A program made the translations under genes and the position numbers. DNA of 64,000 bases from Planctomycetota bacterium (lineage in GTDB: Bacteria > Planctomycetota > Phycisphaerae > UBA1845): assembly GCA_024280855.1 (NCBI GenBank), contig JAJRPG010000018.1, forward strand, positions 1 through 64,000, given 5' to 3'. The notes under the pieces are model-generated. The model was not told the origin of the DNA. It made no database searches and worked only from the letters and a program-made list of their open reading frames with translations. Shown piece after piece: positions 1-6,928 of this stretch (its first letter is position 1; the number at the start of each line of letters is the position of its first letter).

Positions 1-896
1 AGGGGATTCGGCACTAAAATGCCAGCCGTCGGATTCGCCGTTGTGGATAGTGCCCGTTGCTCAGCCTGTGCATCGCTCCAATCACCTATAGCCATGGCGC
101 GAATCGCTCGCCCCAAAGATAGCTCATTGCTACGATTCTCGCCCGCGAATTTGTCGCTCGGCTTTAGCACCCGAACCGTTCGACCAGTCTTACAATCTCG
201 CCACTCGGACGGGTCGTGATAGGATTCGCGTGTCTCGGTTTGCACGGGTTGTGCGGGAACCGATCGCCGCTCCGTAGCCGGGTTGACCATCTCGTTTTCC
301 GGTTTCGGAATTTTGATCTCGGGCGTTGGGTTTGGAACTTTGATCTCGGTTTGTGGATTCGGAACTTTTACTACTGCCATTTTTGAACTCTCTTTCTGCC
401 AGCGATCCTTCGATCGCAAGGCTATGCTTGTGTCTAAATATGCAGGGAAACTTACTATCGAAACGTCGAATAGCTCGCCCTCGTGAATGGTACGGACGGC
501 CTCGCCGTCTACGGTATCCCAACTATCATTTATAGCGCGGAATCCAAAACTCATCGCCGACAAGTCTCCGCGCCTAACGGACTCGACAATGTCTCGACCG
601 ACTGAAGTATCGGGCGGGTCAATCGTTACACGCACACCGCGTTCATCTTCGATCAGTTGCAACGTGCCCGCTCGTGTGCGCCCGATGATCTTCTCAGGCG
701 AATGCTCGACCAGTGCCCGAACGTCAGGATCGCTGCGAAGATTCTTGGAGAATGCGCCCGGCGCGATACGCTCTCGGAATCCCAAATCTTCCGATAGCGA
801 GCCGTAGCGAACCGCGTAGCCCTCAAGTGTTTTCTTGCCCTTGTGTTGCCGAATCTCCAGATCGGAGACAGCTACACACCGTCGTTCTAATTCCAT
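1..896 (-). CDS. HK97-type prohead protease fused to major capsid protein (partial, runs off left edge)
   Basis: An open frame of 298 codons starts at 896 and continues past base 1. GAGGTG lies 8 nt before the ATG and overlaps the terL stop. Residues 1 to about 160 are a caudoviral prohead protease (U35/HK97 gp4 type): His65 in VEHSPEKIIGR, Ser116 in SAMSFGF, then FDVSIVSFPAY. Residues 165-250 are a Pro/Glu/Lys-rich linker with three tandem VPNP..EIK-like units. From about 255 the sequence (LGRAIRAMAIGDW, ALSTTANPTAGILVP) is like the N-terminal part of HK97-fold major capsid proteins, in the same frame. So protease, delta-like linker and capsid form one polyprotein. An internal ATG at 380 (residue 173), preceded by AAAGAGAG, could also give a capsid-only product. 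Fusion is seen directly; domain names are by recognition of motifs. Confidence 0.85.
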   Translation of the reverse strand, partial: MELERRCVAVSDLEIRQHKGKKTLEGYAVRYGSLSEDLGFRERIAPGAFSKNLRSDPDVRALVEHSPEKIIGRTRAGTLQLIEDERGVRVTIDPPDTSVGRDIVESVRRGDLSAMSFGFRAINDSWDTVDGEAVRTIHEGELFDVSIVSFPAYLDTSIALRSKDRWQKESSKMAVVKVPNPQTEIKVPNPTPEIKIPKPENEMVNPATERRSVPAQPVQTETRESYHDPSEWRDCKTGRTVRVLKPSDKFAGENRSNELSLGRAIRAMAIGDWSDAQAEQRALSTTANPTAGILVPNP

Positions 897-906
897 AATA
901 AGCACC

Positions 907-2664
907 TCATACAAACATTAGCCCACGATCTTCGTAGACGCTTCGCTGTTGACTCCGAGACACTGTCCGACCGACAGCCATGATCGCAGCTACGATGCCG
1001 TCGATCTTCTCGCTTGATTTTTTTCTACTAGGTTTCAAATTGCCCGCCGCATCCAGCTCGACACTCACGTTGGAAGCGTGCCAGCGTAGAACTGGATTTG
1101 CACCATGCCGGATCGTGCGATCTAAAACTAAATCCTCGAATCGCTTCGTAGGTGCAGCCATAGACAAGAACCCTTGACCGTGTGCGATCACATTGAATCC
1201 GTCTTGCTCGGATAGCTCTTGCCCGAGTTGGTCGCCTTGAAATAGCCTATCGATTGCGATTTCTTTGAACATGATCCGATGATCTTTGGCTATAGCGTTT
1301 ATGTCTCGCCGGACAGTCGCGTAGTCACACGCATCGCCTTCGGTCGTGCTTATCCAGCCCTCGCGTATCCATTGTAGATAAGGCACACGATCTTTTTTCT
1401 CACGCTCAATCGCTCGAGCCTTGGGAATCCAAAACCTCGGAATCAGTGTCAGCGTGCCGTCATCTTCGGGGAACACCATGACCAGTGCGGTTAAATCGCG
1501 TGTTGCAGCCAGGTCCAATCCAGCCCAACATTCACGACCAGCGTAGTCCTCAATCTTGATCGGCTCGCCCGCGCACTCATCCCAGCGATCCATCGGGAGC
1601 CATCGAACATCTTGCTCGGTGCGGATGTTCAGGTGTAAGCGTTTGAATGTATTCTCAAACCTCGGCGACTCTTGAGCCTTAGCGCATGCAGCCGCTAGAT
1701 ATTCCTTTGACAATGACACGCCGAGATTCGGATTCGCCTTTGCCCATACAGCCGGATCGGTCCAGTCGTCGTCGATCGACGCTTCATAGATCACTGGCAA
1801 GAATGCCGAATCGTTTATGATGCCATCGCGCACCTTGCTAGCGTAGTCGTGCTTTTCGTTGCACGGACTACCGACGCGCTCGTAGTCGGAAGTCGTTATG
1901 TAAATGCCCAACGGTTGACGTCGTGCGCCGGTCGATGTTTCCAGAATGTCCACAAGCTCGGAGTCTGGTAGCGTGTGCAATTCGTCAATCACGAATGCGT
2001 GAGTATTGAATCCGTGCAGTGCCGCAGCATTGGCAGCCACGACCTTGTACGTCGAATAATCTTCCTCGAGTTGAATCGCCTTAGCTTGCCCGGTGTAAAT
2101 CTTCGCACGATCAGCCAGCTTCGGATTCTGCCGAACCATGCCCGCCGCATGTTGGAATACCAAACTCGCTTGCTGGTATTCGCTCGCCGCGCCGTAAATT
2201 TCACTGCCCGGCTCGCCATCCTCGAACAAGCAAAAGTTGATAATGCCAGCCGCCAGCGGAGTTTTGCCGTTTTTTCTCGGTACGAAAATCATGGCTTGAC
2301 GATATCGCCGCGTGCCGTCTGGACGCTTCCAGCCGAATAGATTGCCGATGATCGCCTGTTGCCATCGCTCCAATAGAAACGGTTGCCGAGCCTTTGAACC
2401 TTTGACGTGAGATAGCTCAGACTCGAAAAATCGAATCGCAGCCTTTGCAGCTTTGGCGTCAAACTTACAGTCGCCAGCTTGAGCGAACGGGTTGTAGCCG
2501 GGTATCTCGAGAATGATTTTCTCAAGATCGCGGATCGGTCGCGCGCGCTTCGGGCGCACAATCGTCGGCCTTGGTTTTGACTGACTCGTGCGACGTTTGG
2601 CTAACCTTGAGCCTCGCGCCTTGAGCGCCGCCGTCGGTGTTCGCTTCGGTCCGGGCTTACCCAT
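907..2664 (-). CDS. Phage terminase large subunit (TerL, HK97/Terminase_1 type)
   Basis: 585 aa, full length for the family. This ATPase-nuclease drives DNA into the prohead. ATPase domain: atypical Walker A PRKNGKT at residues 129-135, Walker B VIDE at 225-228, motif III YITTS near 255. Nuclease domain: GLDLAATRD near 383, IAIDR in the middle and KIDGIVAA near the C-terminus supply the expected acidic residues. The N-terminus (GKPGPKRTPT) resembles the start of P27-type small terminases and of some planctomycete large terminases. It overlaps the HNH gene by 8 nt upstream and is followed 10 nt later by the protease-capsid fusion, where HK97-type phages usually have a portal gene. No separate small terminase is seen. 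Confidence 0.95.
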   Translation of the reverse strand: MGKPGPKRTPTAALKARGSRLAKRRTSQSKPRPTIVRPKRARPIRDLEKIILEIPGYNPFAQAGDCKFDAKAAKAAIRFFESELSHVKGSKARQPFLLERWQQAIIGNLFGWKRPDGTRRYRQAMIFVPRKNGKTPLAAGIINFCLFEDGEPGSEIYGAASEYQQASLVFQHAAGMVRQNPKLADRAKIYTGQAKAIQLEEDYSTYKVVAANAAALHGFNTHAFVIDELHTLPDSELVDILETSTGARRQPLGIYITTSDYERVGSPCNEKHDYASKVRDGIINDSAFLPVIYEASIDDDWTDPAVWAKANPNLGVSLSKEYLAAACAKAQESPRFENTFKRLHLNIRTEQDVRWLPMDRWDECAGEPIKIEDYAGRECWAGLDLAATRDLTALVMVFPEDDGTLTLIPRFWIPKARAIEREKKDRVPYLQWIREGWISTTEGDACDYATVRRDINAIAKDHRIMFKEIAIDRLFQGDQLGQELSEQDGFNVIAHGQGFLSMAAPTKRFEDLVLDRTIRHGANPVLRWHASNVSVELDAAGNLKPSRKKSSEKIDGIVAAIMAVGRTVSRSQQRSVYEDRGLMFV

Positions 2665-3031
2665 TGTGATGCCCTAACCCTTTCGAGAAAAATGCGCACT
2701 GGCAGCTACGGTCTTTAGCGGAAGTCGGTAGAGATTTTGTGCGTTCGCGACCGAATGCGCCATCGTGGGCGTATGTTTTTCTATTGTGACATACTTCGCA
2801 CATAGATTGCAGGTTGCCAGTGTCATATAGCAGAGCCGCATCGCCTCGGTGTGGTCGAACATGATCGACAACTCCAGCCGGTCCACCGCACCACGAGCAA
2901 AACGGATCATGCCGCAGCTTCCATGCTCGCAGCTTGCGCCATCGTGAGCCGTAACCCCGTTGGGATGCACTCGGCCTTGTATCCTTCGGCCTTGGTTGTT
3001 TGGATCGATCGGTAGGTAGTCGTTTAGGCAT
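2657..3031 (-). CDS. HNH endonuclease, packaging-associated
   Basis: 124 aa from the ATG at 3031, which has AGGAG 11 nt upstream; an in-frame GTG at 3043 sits inside that Shine-Dalgarno and is less likely. The HNH fold is clear: CSWCGG, then VDHVRPHRGD, then NLQSMCEVCHNRKT, i.e. two CxxC zinc pairs around the DH/N/H residues. In HK97-like phages and in capsid-forming satellites an HNH protein beside the terminase is needed for cos cleavage. Its position directly before terL and the 8-nt overlap fit that role. The basic N-terminus (KRLPTDRSKQPRPKD) is typical of DNA-binding HNH proteins. Confidence 0.92.
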   Translation of the reverse strand: MPKRLPTDRSKQPRPKDTRPSASQRGYGSRWRKLRAWKLRHDPFCSWCGGPAGVVDHVRPHRGDAALLYDTGNLQSMCEVCHNRKTYAHDGAFGRERTKSLPTSAKDRSCQCAFFSKGLGHHNG

Positions 3032-3049
3032 TGTGTACTTCACTCCTGT

Positions 3050-3166
3050 TTATCAGCCATCCGTAAAGGAATAGTGATAACCTTGATAACCTTGATAATG
3101 TGAATTGGATTCTGTTTATCAACCTTATCAACCTTATCAATATGTTGTTGTAGGGACTTGATAATG
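3050..3166. repeat. Iteron-like array of TTGATAA units, 9-bp period, on both strands
   Basis: Between the RepA-like gene and HNH there are three + strand TGATAA units at 3075-3080, 3084-3089 and 3093-3098 (TTGATAACC-type, exact 9-bp period). After about 17 nt come three units on the minus strand at 3116-3121, 3125-3130 and 3134-3139 (TTGATAAGG-type, same period). Single further copies lie at 3050-3055 (minus) and 3160-3166 (plus). The RepA stop codon TGA is inside one unit. Two opposed triplets of short iterons next to a replication ATPase suggest an element origin or an operator controlling the packaging genes; function is inferred. Confidence 0.7.
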
Positions 3167-4318
3167 TGGCCATCTTTCCTTTGTTATCCAGCACTTCTTA
3201 CTCAACTCACCAAAGTCGATATAACGAGACATCACCTCAAGATCGCGCTTAGCTCGGTTTAATGTTGCCTCTTTGAATCCCAGCTCTTTAGCTTCAGCGA
3301 ATATAACTTTGGACTCGACTGGGCCATCGGTTAGACGTTTAGTCAACCAAGCCATAGCTTCATCGCGTGCAGACGTAGACTTCGGCTCTGACAGTGCTTC
3401 GTCAGCGCTGATGCTCACGTCACCATCGAGCCATTCGATCGCACCAGCCGAGCCGACAGGCGTATCTCGACCAACGACGCGATACGCCAGCCCTTCAACC
3501 TTGTGGCCTAAATTATTTTTGATTGGTAGAAACAATGTCCGGTCAGGATCGTTTTGGTCAGCCGAACACATCCATACAGCCCTAGCAGCCGCACCGAATG
3601 CGATCGAACCCATAACGCGATAATTAGCCTTTGTGCCAGCGTTTTTATTCAGATGCAATAACCCAAGGATCGCCACATTAAACTTACTGGCGAAGTCGCT
3701 AAGCGGCCCTAGCACACGCCTCACGTCGGCGTCTTTGTGAGAATCAGACGTGCCCATATATGCAGACAGCGGATCAATAATAATCAGCCGTGTCTCGGGC
3801 TTTTGCTCGAGCGCTTCGTGCATGTACCTCATGCCGTCAGACAATGCGATCATGTCGATAAAGTCGGGCGTTGCGTGGTAGCGTGCGCGAAGTGTATGAA
3901 TGCGGGATAGGTCAGCCTCAGCCGCGTAGAGTCGCGGGGCGATAGTGTCGTCAGCCGCATCCTCGCATGACATAATAATGACATCGCCTGGAGTCGTTGG
4001 TGTAATAACCTTTTGACAATCGGGAAATGGTCTGCCTTGGGACACTCTCGCCGCTATATCAAACGCAAGTGTGGACTTTCCTAGATTCGGATCACCGCAG
4101 AGTATCGACAGCTTGCCTTCGGGGATTCTATTCGGCCACAGCCATGTGACGGATTTCATTTTGACGCTGGACATCGTCTCGAATACTGGACCGGGTTGCG
4201 GTTTAGGATTGGTGTCGGCTTGCAAGCCATGCCATGATTCTCGATGGGCTTGCCCGTTCGTTTTCGCCTTTGTTGACGCAATGCCCGCGTTAGCCATGGC
4301 GCGATTTAATATGCTCAT
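3137..4318 (-). CDS. RepA-like AAA_25 family ATPase/helicase (element replication)
   Basis: 393 aa from ATG 4318, chosen because it overlaps the preceding stop as ATGA and is preceded by GGGGAG; the frame is open 26 codons further upstream. RecA-fold hexameric helicase of the plasmid RepA/AAA_25 family: Walker A GDPNLGKST near residues 75-83, Walker B RLIIIDPLSAYMG near 177-190, and a sensor-like LGLLHLNKN downstream. The C-terminal 70 residues look like a winged helix (ARDEAMAWLTKRL, LGFKEATLNRAKRDL). These proteins unwind origins of plasmids, phages and satellites. An iteron-like array begins at its 3' end, supporting a replication role. No primase is seen beside it. Confidence 0.88.
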   Translation of the reverse strand: MSILNRAMANAGIASTKAKTNGQAHRESWHGLQADTNPKPQPGPVFETMSSVKMKSVTWLWPNRIPEGKLSILCGDPNLGKSTLAFDIAARVSQGRPFPDCQKVITPTTPGDVIIMSCEDAADDTIAPRLYAAEADLSRIHTLRARYHATPDFIDMIALSDGMRYMHEALEQKPETRLIIIDPLSAYMGTSDSHKDADVRRVLGPLSDFASKFNVAILGLLHLNKNAGTKANYRVMGSIAFGAAARAVWMCSADQNDPDRTLFLPIKNNLGHKVEGLAYRVVGRDTPVGSAGAIEWLDGDVSISADEALSEPKSTSARDEAMAWLTKRLTDGPVESKVIFAEAKELGFKEATLNRAKRDLEVMSRYIDFGELSKKCWITKERWPHYQVPTTTY

Positions 4319-4611
4319 CGTGGTGGCGTCTCCCCTATGGCTTGCGTGCGTAATCGTTGAATTTTGCGATCGGACAAGATGCCGCTTGGTAAACACTTGT
4401 TGCAGCAGTCCACCATATCTAACAGGTCCAACGATCCGCGATTATCACCTTTAGAAAATTGTGAATTTGCGGATTCGCCAAGCTCATGCCATGCCGAGTC
4501 TTTGTAGGCGTGCAGTACGTCAAGCGGATCGCGGCTTCGCATTGGGCAAGCTCGGGGTAGCTCGTGGATTATTGATTGCTCAGTGTATTGGCAGATCGGG
4601 TGACGACTCAT
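4315..4611 (-). CDS. Small uncharacterised element protein, 98 aa
   Basis: Not a family I recognise. It is supported as a gene by translational coupling at both ends: its ATG overlaps the previous stop as TAATG (4609-4613), and its TGA overlaps the RepA-like start as ATGA (4315-4318). It carries an N-terminal HPICQY and a central CCNKCLPSG, so three closely spaced cysteines plus one more, which might bind a metal. The rest is polar with acidic and basic stretches and no membrane segment. Its place between the HTH protein and the replication ATPase suggests a role in replication control or copy number, but this is only inference from position. Confidence 0.65.
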   Translation of the reverse strand: MSRHPICQYTEQSIIHELPRACPMRSRDPLDVLHAYKDSAWHELGESANSQFSKGDNRGSLDLLDMVDCCNKCLPSGILSDRKIQRLRTQAIGETPPR

Positions 4612-4925
4612 TATAAAATCCCTCCCGATCGAAGTGTCGCCTCAGACCGTGCGATTGATCGCTCGCGTTGGCGACTGGTGGGTTTCTTTGGTGGTGGGGC
4701 GGGGCGATCGGGAAGATCAATTTCGGCCAAGGCTTTTGAGAATCGGTCAAGGGCTTCAAGGCTCGTTACAAACCTGCCGCCGAGCCGTCGTGTCTCGAGT
4801 TTAATCCCTTGGCAGCCTCGCCTAGCCCATCGCCAGATTGTTGAAGTGTGACATTTCTTGCCGTTGAAAATCGGCAAATGTTTTGCCGCCTCGGCGAATG
4901 TCAAAATTGTCTCTGATTGCAGCAT
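4611..4925 (-). CDS. AlpA/DUF1580-like helix-turn-helix protein (excisionase or activator)
   Basis: 104 aa. The first 60 residues form a MerR/excisionase-type HTH with wing: LTFAEAAKHLP, then STIWRWARRGCQGIKLETRRLGG, then a wing strand RFVTSLEALDRF. This layout is that of DUF1580 proteins of planctomycetes and of AlpA/Xis-like proteins. The tail is Pro- and Arg-rich (APPPKKPTSRQRERS). GGAG lies 7 nt before the ATG but sits in the arm of a hairpin (4934-4965), so translation may be gated. AlpA-like proteins activate integrase/excision or the early genes of satellites; with no divergent repressor in sight it is the only obvious regulator on this side of the element. Confidence 0.8.
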   Translation of the reverse strand: MLQSETILTFAEAAKHLPIFNGKKCHTSTIWRWARRGCQGIKLETRRLGGRFVTSLEALDRFSKALAEIDLPDRPAPPPKKPTSRQRERSIARSEATLRSGGIL

Positions 4926-4933
4926 TGCACGTC

Positions 4934-4965
4934 TCCATAAAGGACTTCGTAAGTCTCTTTATGGA
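4934..4965 (-). promoter_or_regulatory. Hairpin overlapping the Shine-Dalgarno of the AlpA/DUF1580-like gene
   Basis: TCCATAAAG-GACTT and AAGTC-T-CTTTATGGA pair as a 14-bp stem with one bulged base and a 3-nt loop. Read on the minus strand, the second arm ends in TTTATGGA, and the next G completes GGAG, the ribosome site 7 nt before the ATG at 4925. It could act as an RNA switch, as an operator, or as an attenuator between this gene and the one upstream. There is no T-run after it, so a simple terminator is unlikely. Confidence 0.6.
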
Positions 4966-4987
4966 TAGTGCCACGTTGCATTGACAG

Positions 4988-5566
4988 TCAGGAGGGACTG
5001 TCAGACTTATTCCTTTGATTCCTTTCTCGTGTACTACGAACCATTCGTGATGATACATTGTCAAGCTGCTTGCTTACGAGGTCATCCAATTGAGCCTTGG
5101 TCAAATGGGGCTTTTGTAGCGACAATTGATCTAAAGATTCTAAAATCTTAATGTTGCGTAACTGAATTATAGCTGGGGGTAGATTTGCAATAGCCTGCCC
5201 CTTTCGGCCACCGTCTTCCACTTTGCACCCAGTCCATGCGTTATGCTCACGGTTGCGGAAGCTAGCAAGTTGCATACGCTGGCCTAATAGAATTGCTTGG
5301 TGGATAGCACCGTTAATTTCATCTCGATCAACTAAATCTCGTATGATTTTACAATCAAATGAAGCATCTTTTATATCATCGAGAAAAGCATTTCGTGATA
5401 GCTTATCAACAATGTGTGATCCAGGTGAATTTGAAGATAGAGTTTTTTCGCATGATTGCTCGACCATGTCTAAAAAATTGTGATACCAATAGTTATATTG
5501 TTCCACTCCCTCGATCATCGCTTTACGCATCTGGTCTAGACTTTGCTTAGGCTTGTTGTTTTGCAT
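4988..5566 (-). CDS. Uncharacterised element protein, 192 aa
   Basis: No family recognised. Start taken at the ATG 5566; an in-frame GTG at 5572 overlaps the integrase stop (GTGA), so the two genes are coupled either way. AAGG about 10 nt upstream fits the ATG. The sequence is soluble, mostly helical by composition, with an N-terminal stretch rich in aromatic and acidic residues (GVEQYNYWYHNFLDMVEQ) and a basic C-terminus (STRERNQRNKSDS). Nothing resembles a nuclease, repressor or methylase motif. Lying between integrase and the AlpA-like gene, it may be an accessory or recombination directionality factor, or a host-interaction cargo gene. Confidence 0.7.
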   Translation of the reverse strand: MQNNKPKQSLDQMRKAMIEGVEQYNYWYHNFLDMVEQSCEKTLSSNSPGSHIVDKLSRNAFLDDIKDASFDCKIIRDLVDRDEINGAIHQAILLGQRMQLASFRNREHNAWTGCKVEDGGRKGQAIANLPPAIIQLRNIKILESLDQLSLQKPHLTKAQLDDLVSKQLDNVSSRMVRSTRERNQRNKSDSPS

Positions 5567-5568
5567 AA

Positions 5569-6735
5569 TCACCCTACCTTTCTAGCAGCTTCGATCGCTT
5601 GCTCGACATTTTTTTCCGCATAAAGCTCGGTGATTTTCGATCCGAGCCTATGCCCGAGCATTGTTTGTGTGACATCAATACCTACCTCGGCGCGTAAATT
5701 AGTTGCAGCATTGTGTCGCAACCTGTGCGGGGACCAACTAGGAATCTTAGCAGCTACGCAAGCCCGTTGAATCGCTCGGCGATAACTTTCCGTTGTGTAG
5801 CAATCACCTATTTTTCTATCCGATTTTAGATGGTTAGGTTTTTGATTCGCTCGTCGATGCGTCTCTGCTTGAGCGTGTCGCTCCGCTACAGCTTCTCGCG
5901 GATCGAATAGGTATGCGTCAACAGGGCGATCGGCTATAAATTCGTGAAGTATTTCCTGTGATCTCGGGCCGAAGTAGATAGCTCTGTCATGCCCGTAGTG
6001 AGCCGTTTTGTGTGACGTTGGACGATACACCCAAACAGGCTTGGAAGTGTCCATATCGACAGCCCGCAGGCTAACCAACTCGCCCGGACGTGCGCCGCTA
6101 TACAGTTGTAGATCAATCAGCGATCGAACTTGTCGAGATACTAGCTTTCGCACAGATTCAATATCATCGCTTGGAACTGGTAGCCTTGGTGGGTTCTCTC
6201 GGGCATCGGTACGACCACGAGAGAGACCGCCTACGCATTGTAACGCATGGTAAGTTGAAGCGTTCACAATCTCATTTTCGACACCCCATTTGAAAACATG
6301 CTTAATGCGTGTCACGCATTTGTTGATATTCGATCGACACCAGCCAAGATTTATAAACCGTGTACGAATAGTCTTGAGCGATCGCGGACCGAATTTTTCA
6401 CATGCCGTAGAACCATACAATTCGGTGACGTGTTTCAAAATGTAGCGGTAGTTCTCTAGCTCGTGTGAATCTTGGCCACTGGGTAGACGATAGTGTTTCT
6501 GCGCGTGAATCCAAAACTCGGCGACTAGCTCGGTAATAGTGAATTCGCCAGCTTGACCTACTGTGTGCCTTCCGCCAGCTAGCCACTCAGCCACAACTCT
6601 CCGATACACCTCGCGTGACTCATCAGAGTCGTATGATCCAAGATGAACACGGACGCCATCCAAGACGACTATGGCACGATCGTTGCCGTTTCTTTCTTTT
6701 TGCTTGCGGTACTTTGGAATTGATTGACTCGTCAT
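5569..6735 (-). CDS. int: Tyrosine-family site-specific integrase
   Basis: 388 aa. N-terminal arm-binding and SAM-like core-binding domains to about residue 175, then the catalytic domain with the full R-H-R-H-Y set: Arg216 in YSGARPGEL, His337 and Arg340 in SPHRLRHNAA, His362 in MLGHRLG, and the nucleophile Tyr372 in ELYAEK. It ends 120 nt from the 3' end of tRNA-Ala, which marks that tRNA as the probable attB. It is co-oriented with the tRNA and is the first gene of the element, so tRNA read-through could express it unless the dyad at 6756-6782 stops transcription. Confidence 0.95.
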   Translation of the reverse strand: MTSQSIPKYRKQKERNGNDRAIVVLDGVRVHLGSYDSDESREVYRRVVAEWLAGGRHTVGQAGEFTITELVAEFWIHAQKHYRLPSGQDSHELENYRYILKHVTELYGSTACEKFGPRSLKTIRTRFINLGWCRSNINKCVTRIKHVFKWGVENEIVNASTYHALQCVGGLSRGRTDARENPPRLPVPSDDIESVRKLVSRQVRSLIDLQLYSGARPGELVSLRAVDMDTSKPVWVYRPTSHKTAHYGHDRAIYFGPRSQEILHEFIADRPVDAYLFDPREAVAERHAQAETHRRANQKPNHLKSDRKIGDCYTTESYRRAIQRACVAAKIPSWSPHRLRHNAATNLRAEVGIDVTQTMLGHRLGSKITELYAEKNVEQAIEAARKVG

Positions 6736-6755
6736 GCTGCACAGCCTTTCAAAAG

Positions 6756-6782
6756 GAAAAACGTACCATTGGTACCTTTTTC
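6756..6782. terminator. Dyad between tRNA-Ala and integrase (terminator or integrase operator)
   Basis: GAAAAACGTACC and GGTACCTTTTTC form a 12-bp inverted repeat with one mismatch and a 3-nt loop. The A5/T5 tracts make it terminator-like in both directions. It lies 21 nt before the integrase ATG and 74 nt after the tRNA 3' end, so it could end the tRNA transcript or bind an integrase regulator. Confidence 0.5.
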
Positions 6783-6855
6783 GCCTTGATTACAGCCGCT
6801 CTGCCGCGCTCGGCAGGTATTCATAACCAATTATGAATTCAGCATTTACGTTCAA

Positions 6856-6928
6856 TGGAGCCGAAGGGGCTCGAACCCTCGACCTCCTGGTTGCAAACCA
6901 GGCGCTCTCCCAATTGAGCTACGGCCCC
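6856..6928 (-). tRNA. tRNA-Ala, anticodon UGC
   Basis: A complete 73-nt cloverleaf on the minus strand. The acceptor stem is GGGGCCG with CGGCTCC and discriminator A; the anticodon stem CCTGG/CCAGG encloses loop TTTGCAA (anticodon TGC); the T-loop is TTCGAGC. The three bases after the discriminator are TTG, so CCA is not encoded and must be added by the nucleotidyltransferase found at 24.8 kb. It serves as the attachment site of the element to its left. Confidence 0.97.

Follow-up and report, generated by a model that had tools for sequence, protein, structure and literature searches.

The window analysed here, a stretch of 64,000 nucleotides whose first base is also the first base of contig C42 (JAJRPG010000018.1) of genome G000 (GCA_024280855.1), opens inside the capsid gene of an integrated, phage-related element, a putative phage satellite that is cut at this point by an assembly break and is the subject of this report. 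Gene identities were assigned through domain and family searches (Pfam, PHROGs) of the open reading frames (ORFs), and these searches bear out the order, strand and spacing given by the original prediction: integrase, helix-turn-helix (HTH) protein, ORF, RepA-like ATPase, repeats, HNH endonuclease, large terminase subunit (TerL) and protease-capsid protein, all on the minus strand. The HNH endonuclease is of the packaging type (2657..3043, minus strand; PF01844 E 2e-5; phrog_144 E 2.4e-22), TerL is complete with 585 aa (907..2664, minus; PF03354, PF20441, phrog_9 E 5e-170), and the gene cut by the contig end (1..896, minus; PF04586 E 2.8e-47; phrog_80) encodes a fusion of an S78 prohead protease with a major capsid protein, which reaches its full length of 543 aa in L036, a related viral contig. 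The coordinates confirm that exactly 10 nt separate the stop codon of TerL (907-909) from the ATG of the fusion gene (896), so that no portal gene directly follows TerL, as had been claimed.

The integration target is a tRNA-Ala (TGC; 6856..6928, minus; ARAGORN), over which lies the attachment repeat of the integrase side, 115 bp long (6789..6903) and composed of the 3' part of the tRNA and 66 bp past it. A search of the genome with the element sequence led to a second contig, C77 (6,409 bp), which carries a 97% identical copy of this repeat (C77:4295-4409), a copy that, judged by its sequence, is the far attachment repeat whose search beyond the window had been proposed. Inward from it lie an HK97-type portal gene (397 aa; phrog_12 E 3e-116) at a distance of 136 bp, then only the C-terminal part of a gene for a putative decoration protein (deco), and then the contig end. 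The role of deco is suggested by its position after the capsid gene; its fold model, a beta-sandwich (pLDDT 65), finds its matches mainly among phage proteins that are uncharacterised, and its PDB matches are uninformative. The portal is therefore not missing, as the original prediction had held, but relocated to the far end of the element. Its true absence was rejected on the strength of the phrog_12 match, as was an ordinary prophage with a relocated tail once the other end had been located.

The break at the end of C77 arises because a multi-copy insertion sequence interrupts deco, near codon 44 when L036 is taken as the reference. The final ~140 bp of the contig (C77:6270-6409) are an insertion-sequence end that recurs 18 more times across the genome, almost always at a contig end and once at the right end of C42, and this insertion sequence explains many of the assembly breaks in the genome. 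The end of the capsid gene and the start of deco, ~0.9 kb, are not in the assembly; placement of this stretch elsewhere in it was rejected, as a search with the DNA of L036 gave no match. Without the insertion sequence, the element measures ~9.7 kb (6,903 + about 926 + 1,861). A palindrome, GTACCAATGGTAC, stands near both ends (window 6763-6775; C77:4510-4522), while L036 has different palindromes at the two matching places; these could be sites for a regulator or recombinase.

L036 (IMG/VR contig IMGVR_UViG_3300023500_000125, 8,070 bp) is a relative with which both C42 and C77 are collinear. Its DNA is 78.7% identical to window positions 1-3650 and 81.7% to the matching part of C77, while its TerL and portal proteins are 90% and 88% identical to those of the element. 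In unbroken order it bears the C-terminal part of Rep, the repeats, HNH, TerL, protease-capsid, deco, portal, the 3' half of a tRNA-Gly (attP) and an integrase. The join of portal, half tRNA and integrase has, from its sequence, the appearance expected of an excised circle (or of a tandem junction); L036 itself is no closed circle, since its two ends share no overlap. As the window runs from integrase to mid-capsid and L036 from mid-Rep to integrase, between them they leave no part of the element uncovered. L036 belongs to a different site, tRNA-Gly, and its integrase differs from that of the window, but it shares the tail-less layout. Across the window, C77 and L036, which jointly cover the whole element, no tail or lysis genes were recognised, and the left part, where such a module had been anticipated by the original prediction as a possible refutation, holds only the remainder of the capsid gene, deco, portal and attachment repeat; the tail and lysis modules of an ordinary temperate phage are thus absent. 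Head-tail connectors were likewise not found among the family-searched ORFs of the window and C77, nor is there room for them in the map of L036, although divergent ones among two small unassigned ORFs remain conceivable.

Comparison of the window and C77 with L036 gave ratios of nonsynonymous to synonymous differences (pN/pS) of 0.166 for TerL, 0.15 for portal, 0.14 for deco and 0.27 for protease-capsid, at a synonymous divergence of about 0.6-0.8 for these four genes; that of the Rep ATPase was 0.27. These values indicate that the head genes are under purifying selection and that their function has been maintained. A further relative, L150 (G700), has a TerL that is 70% identical and the order deco-HNH-TerL-capsid on a cut contig, and decayed portal pieces are present in two genomes of the same genus (G571:C13, G559:C5), again near the arm on the attachment side. 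Searches of IMG/VR with Rep, capsid or a TerL profile yielded no members except L036.

The HNH and TerL genes overlap by 8 bp, so there is no gene for a small terminase subunit (TerS) between them, and no separate TerS was recognised across the window, C77 and L036; the reported lack of a small terminase is thus real, but a trace of it persists as a tail fused to TerL. Residues 1-32 of TerL (2569..2664, minus) are homologous to the N-terminus of TerS of related elements. A search with residues 1-45 covered 7,382 ORFs from about 110 loci and admitted E values up to 0.05; the matches, besides TerL of L036, were only ORFs of 126-197 aa, the size of TerS (best E 2.5e-6), and those inspected lay directly upstream of TerL. 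The tail is absent from TerL of elements with a separate TerS, and is common to three elements: that of the window, L036 and L150. The simplest account of these sequences is that TerS was lost before the three split, its tail being retained on TerL. DNA recognition would then fall to TerL and HNH alone, or to the TerS of a helper phage. That the satellite packages without any TerS, its tailed TerL and HNH recognising and cutting the satellite genome, can be put forward tentatively at best; if true, this would rank among the most compact satellite gene sets that provide both head and motor by themselves. The fusion also makes it testable which part of TerS the motor needs to choose DNA.

The arrangement was compared with that of phages through deco homologues in 79 viral contigs. 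In 72 of these deco directly follows the capsid gene (of the rest, 5 lack any gene upstream within the contig, and in 2 the gene there was not recognised). Portal and deco are both visible in 26 contigs, and in every one of them the portal is on the upstream side, never downstream; a TerS-sized ORF precedes each of the 8 TerL genes with enough upstream DNA. In the window element the portal comes last, the TerS gene is absent, and protease and capsid are fused; such fusions occur in some phages too, but, given the 26/26 phage contigs with the portal upstream of deco, the final position of the portal is specific to the lineage of this element. Ordinary HK97-type temperate phages or prophages (such as L037, L193, L203 and L211) possess homologous HNH, TerL, portal, protease, capsid and deco genes, differing in their order, HNH-TerS-TerL-portal-protease-capsid-deco followed by further genes, and from these homologies they are evidently the kind of source from which the head module came.

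The rest of the element serves integration and replication. Next to the tRNA lies a tyrosine integrase (5569..6735, minus; PF00589 E 1.4e-14; phrog_1 E 5.5e-30), followed by a 194-aa protein of no assigned function (4988..5572, minus), 37% identical to a protein of a same-genus element (L138), with a fold model too poor to use (pLDDT 57). The HTH protein (4611..4925, minus; PF07618 E 3.9e-13; phrog_66 E 1.9e-4) belongs to DUF1580, which we take to be a planctomycete family, and is by its sequence a probable excisionase or regulator of AlpA-like type; with it, the planctomycete-type host named in the original prediction is plausible. A 98-aa ORF without a family match (4315..4611, minus) precedes the RepA-like AAA_25 replication ATPase (3137..4318, minus; PF13481 E 4.1e-34), after which stand iteron-like direct and inverted repeats, TTGATAAGG/TTATCAAGG (about 3074..3140). 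The repeats of the window probably represent the replication origin; inverted repeats are found at the matching position in L036.

Gene content, boundaries, order and conservation lead us to regard the element of about 9.7 kb, with good confidence, as an integrated phage satellite of the capsid-forming kind, in support of the proposal of a compact, satellite-like element that brings head and packaging genes of its own. The integrase and the DUF1580 protein would excise a circle from tRNA-Ala, which the RepA-like ATPase would replicate from the repeats downstream of its gene. The protease-capsid fusion, deco and portal could then assemble a small procapsid of the element's own, into which TerL and HNH would cut and package its DNA, while a helper phage would provide head-completion proteins, tail and lysis. 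Heads with an HK97-type portal work with tails in known phages, and the element probably borrows the tail of its helper.

Several points weigh against this interpretation. No helper phage was found in the genome itself, which has one portal and one TerL, both of the window element, and no search was made beyond it; the helper must come from outside the genome or be of another type. In favour of the reading, the same count ensures that the inventory is not confused by a second phage of the same type. Against it, the insertion sequence in deco means that this copy may be defective, C42 and C77 are unjoined in the assembly, with the ~0.9 kb between them absent, so that their join is deduced, and the collections searched hold just two near relatives, L036 and L150, the latter a partial contig of different order. 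A clean empty site was not obtained either, as the same-genus genome G571 has another element in its tRNA-Ala and its left flank differs. This occupant (L137:3365-9486; G571:C3) is a different integrase-primase element, on whose far side lies a remnant of the attachment region of the window element's family.

The interrupted deco gene and the decayed portal remnants in sister genomes could also be explained by an ordinary prophage in decay, inert by now after deletions removed its tail and lysis genes. Such a history appears unlikely, for L036 has the same tail-less layout at another tRNA with a different integrase, the gene order is rearranged rather than merely truncated, and head genes with pN/pS of 0.14-0.27 at dS about 0.7 are not expected of an inert remnant. 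A self-sufficient minimal virus or gene-transfer-like particle without a tail, freed for example on cell lysis and otherwise taken up, would fit the complete set of head and motor genes, and no helper-interference gene was recognised among the family-searched ORFs of the window and C77; the absence of a lysis gene and the use of tails by known phages with portals of this family make this very improbable. The lack of a join, together with the difference between the flanks of C77 and G571, would lastly allow a reading with two elements, in which C77 ends a different prophage and the element on C42 has no portal. Given that both contigs are collinear with the single contig L036, that portal and TerL each occur once in the genome, and that the 115-bp repeat on C77 is 97% identical to the sequence at precisely this tRNA, this is the least probable of the explanations weighed.

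Other elements in the same genome and in relatives were also observed. A second tRNA-integrated element of about 7.9 kb lies at tRNA-Val in G000 (G000:C6:51800-59723; L075:3800-11723), with a tyrosine integrase (a weak Pfam match), a DUF3987 primase-helicase and two small ORFs. Its opposite strand bears an HK97-type capsid gene, which stands alone as the sole recognised structural gene, and a small, possibly HTH-type ORF, and 27 bp of the tRNA 3' end recur at the far boundary of the element. An element beside tRNA-Phe in another genome (L178:9427-17655; G453:C63) carries an integrase, TerS, DnaB-like Rep, AlpA-like HTH protein, capsid gene and a short tape-measure protein (422 aa); an attachment repeat looked for at this locus was not found. 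L163 shares its integrase and DUF1580 types with the window element. Terminase-only elements of the same bacterial family (L152-L157, in G426, G444, G596, G526, which has two, and G614) resemble it in a TerL that is 56-58% identical, within an HNH-TerS-TerL block, but their TerS is separate and no portal or capsid follows TerL. They may be packaging-only satellites or prophage remnants; two of these loci, examined further, have ParB-methyltransferase genes upstream.

No report on planctomycete satellites or on DUF1580 was found in the literature searched, and the satellite reading, if true, would add a bacterial group without such a report to the hosts of capsid-making satellites. The element is about two thirds of the usual size and makes do with five head and packaging genes, and with the elements of sister genomes that have terminase genes only or a capsid gene only it suggests a satellite series with apparently graded helper dependence.

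Among known systems, capsid-forming phage-inducible chromosomal islands (cf-PICIs) are defined by a satellite-encoded capsid, protease, portal, connectors, HNH and both terminase subunits (PMC10690885, PMC13230959). By this published definition the window element is alike in its integrase with site-specific attachment repeats, excisionase or AlpA-like HTH protein, replication gene, HNH and TerL, its own capsid, head protease and portal, and its lack of a tail. It differs in having no separate TerS and no recognised connectors, in a portal that comes last instead of after TerL, and in its size, about 9.7 kb where cf-PICIs average 14 kb (PMC10803314); planctomycetes are not among the hosts listed for cf-PICIs (PMC10803314). 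Because it departs from the definition in TerS and connectors and is smaller, the element is not filed as a cf-PICI, although it most likely works like one. The Streptomyces satellites MulchRoom and MiniFlayer (PMC10690885), compared by their description, also encode terminase, portal and capsid while a recognised tail module is absent. The way of life proposed for the element is thus a known one, of which it would be an unusually small example.
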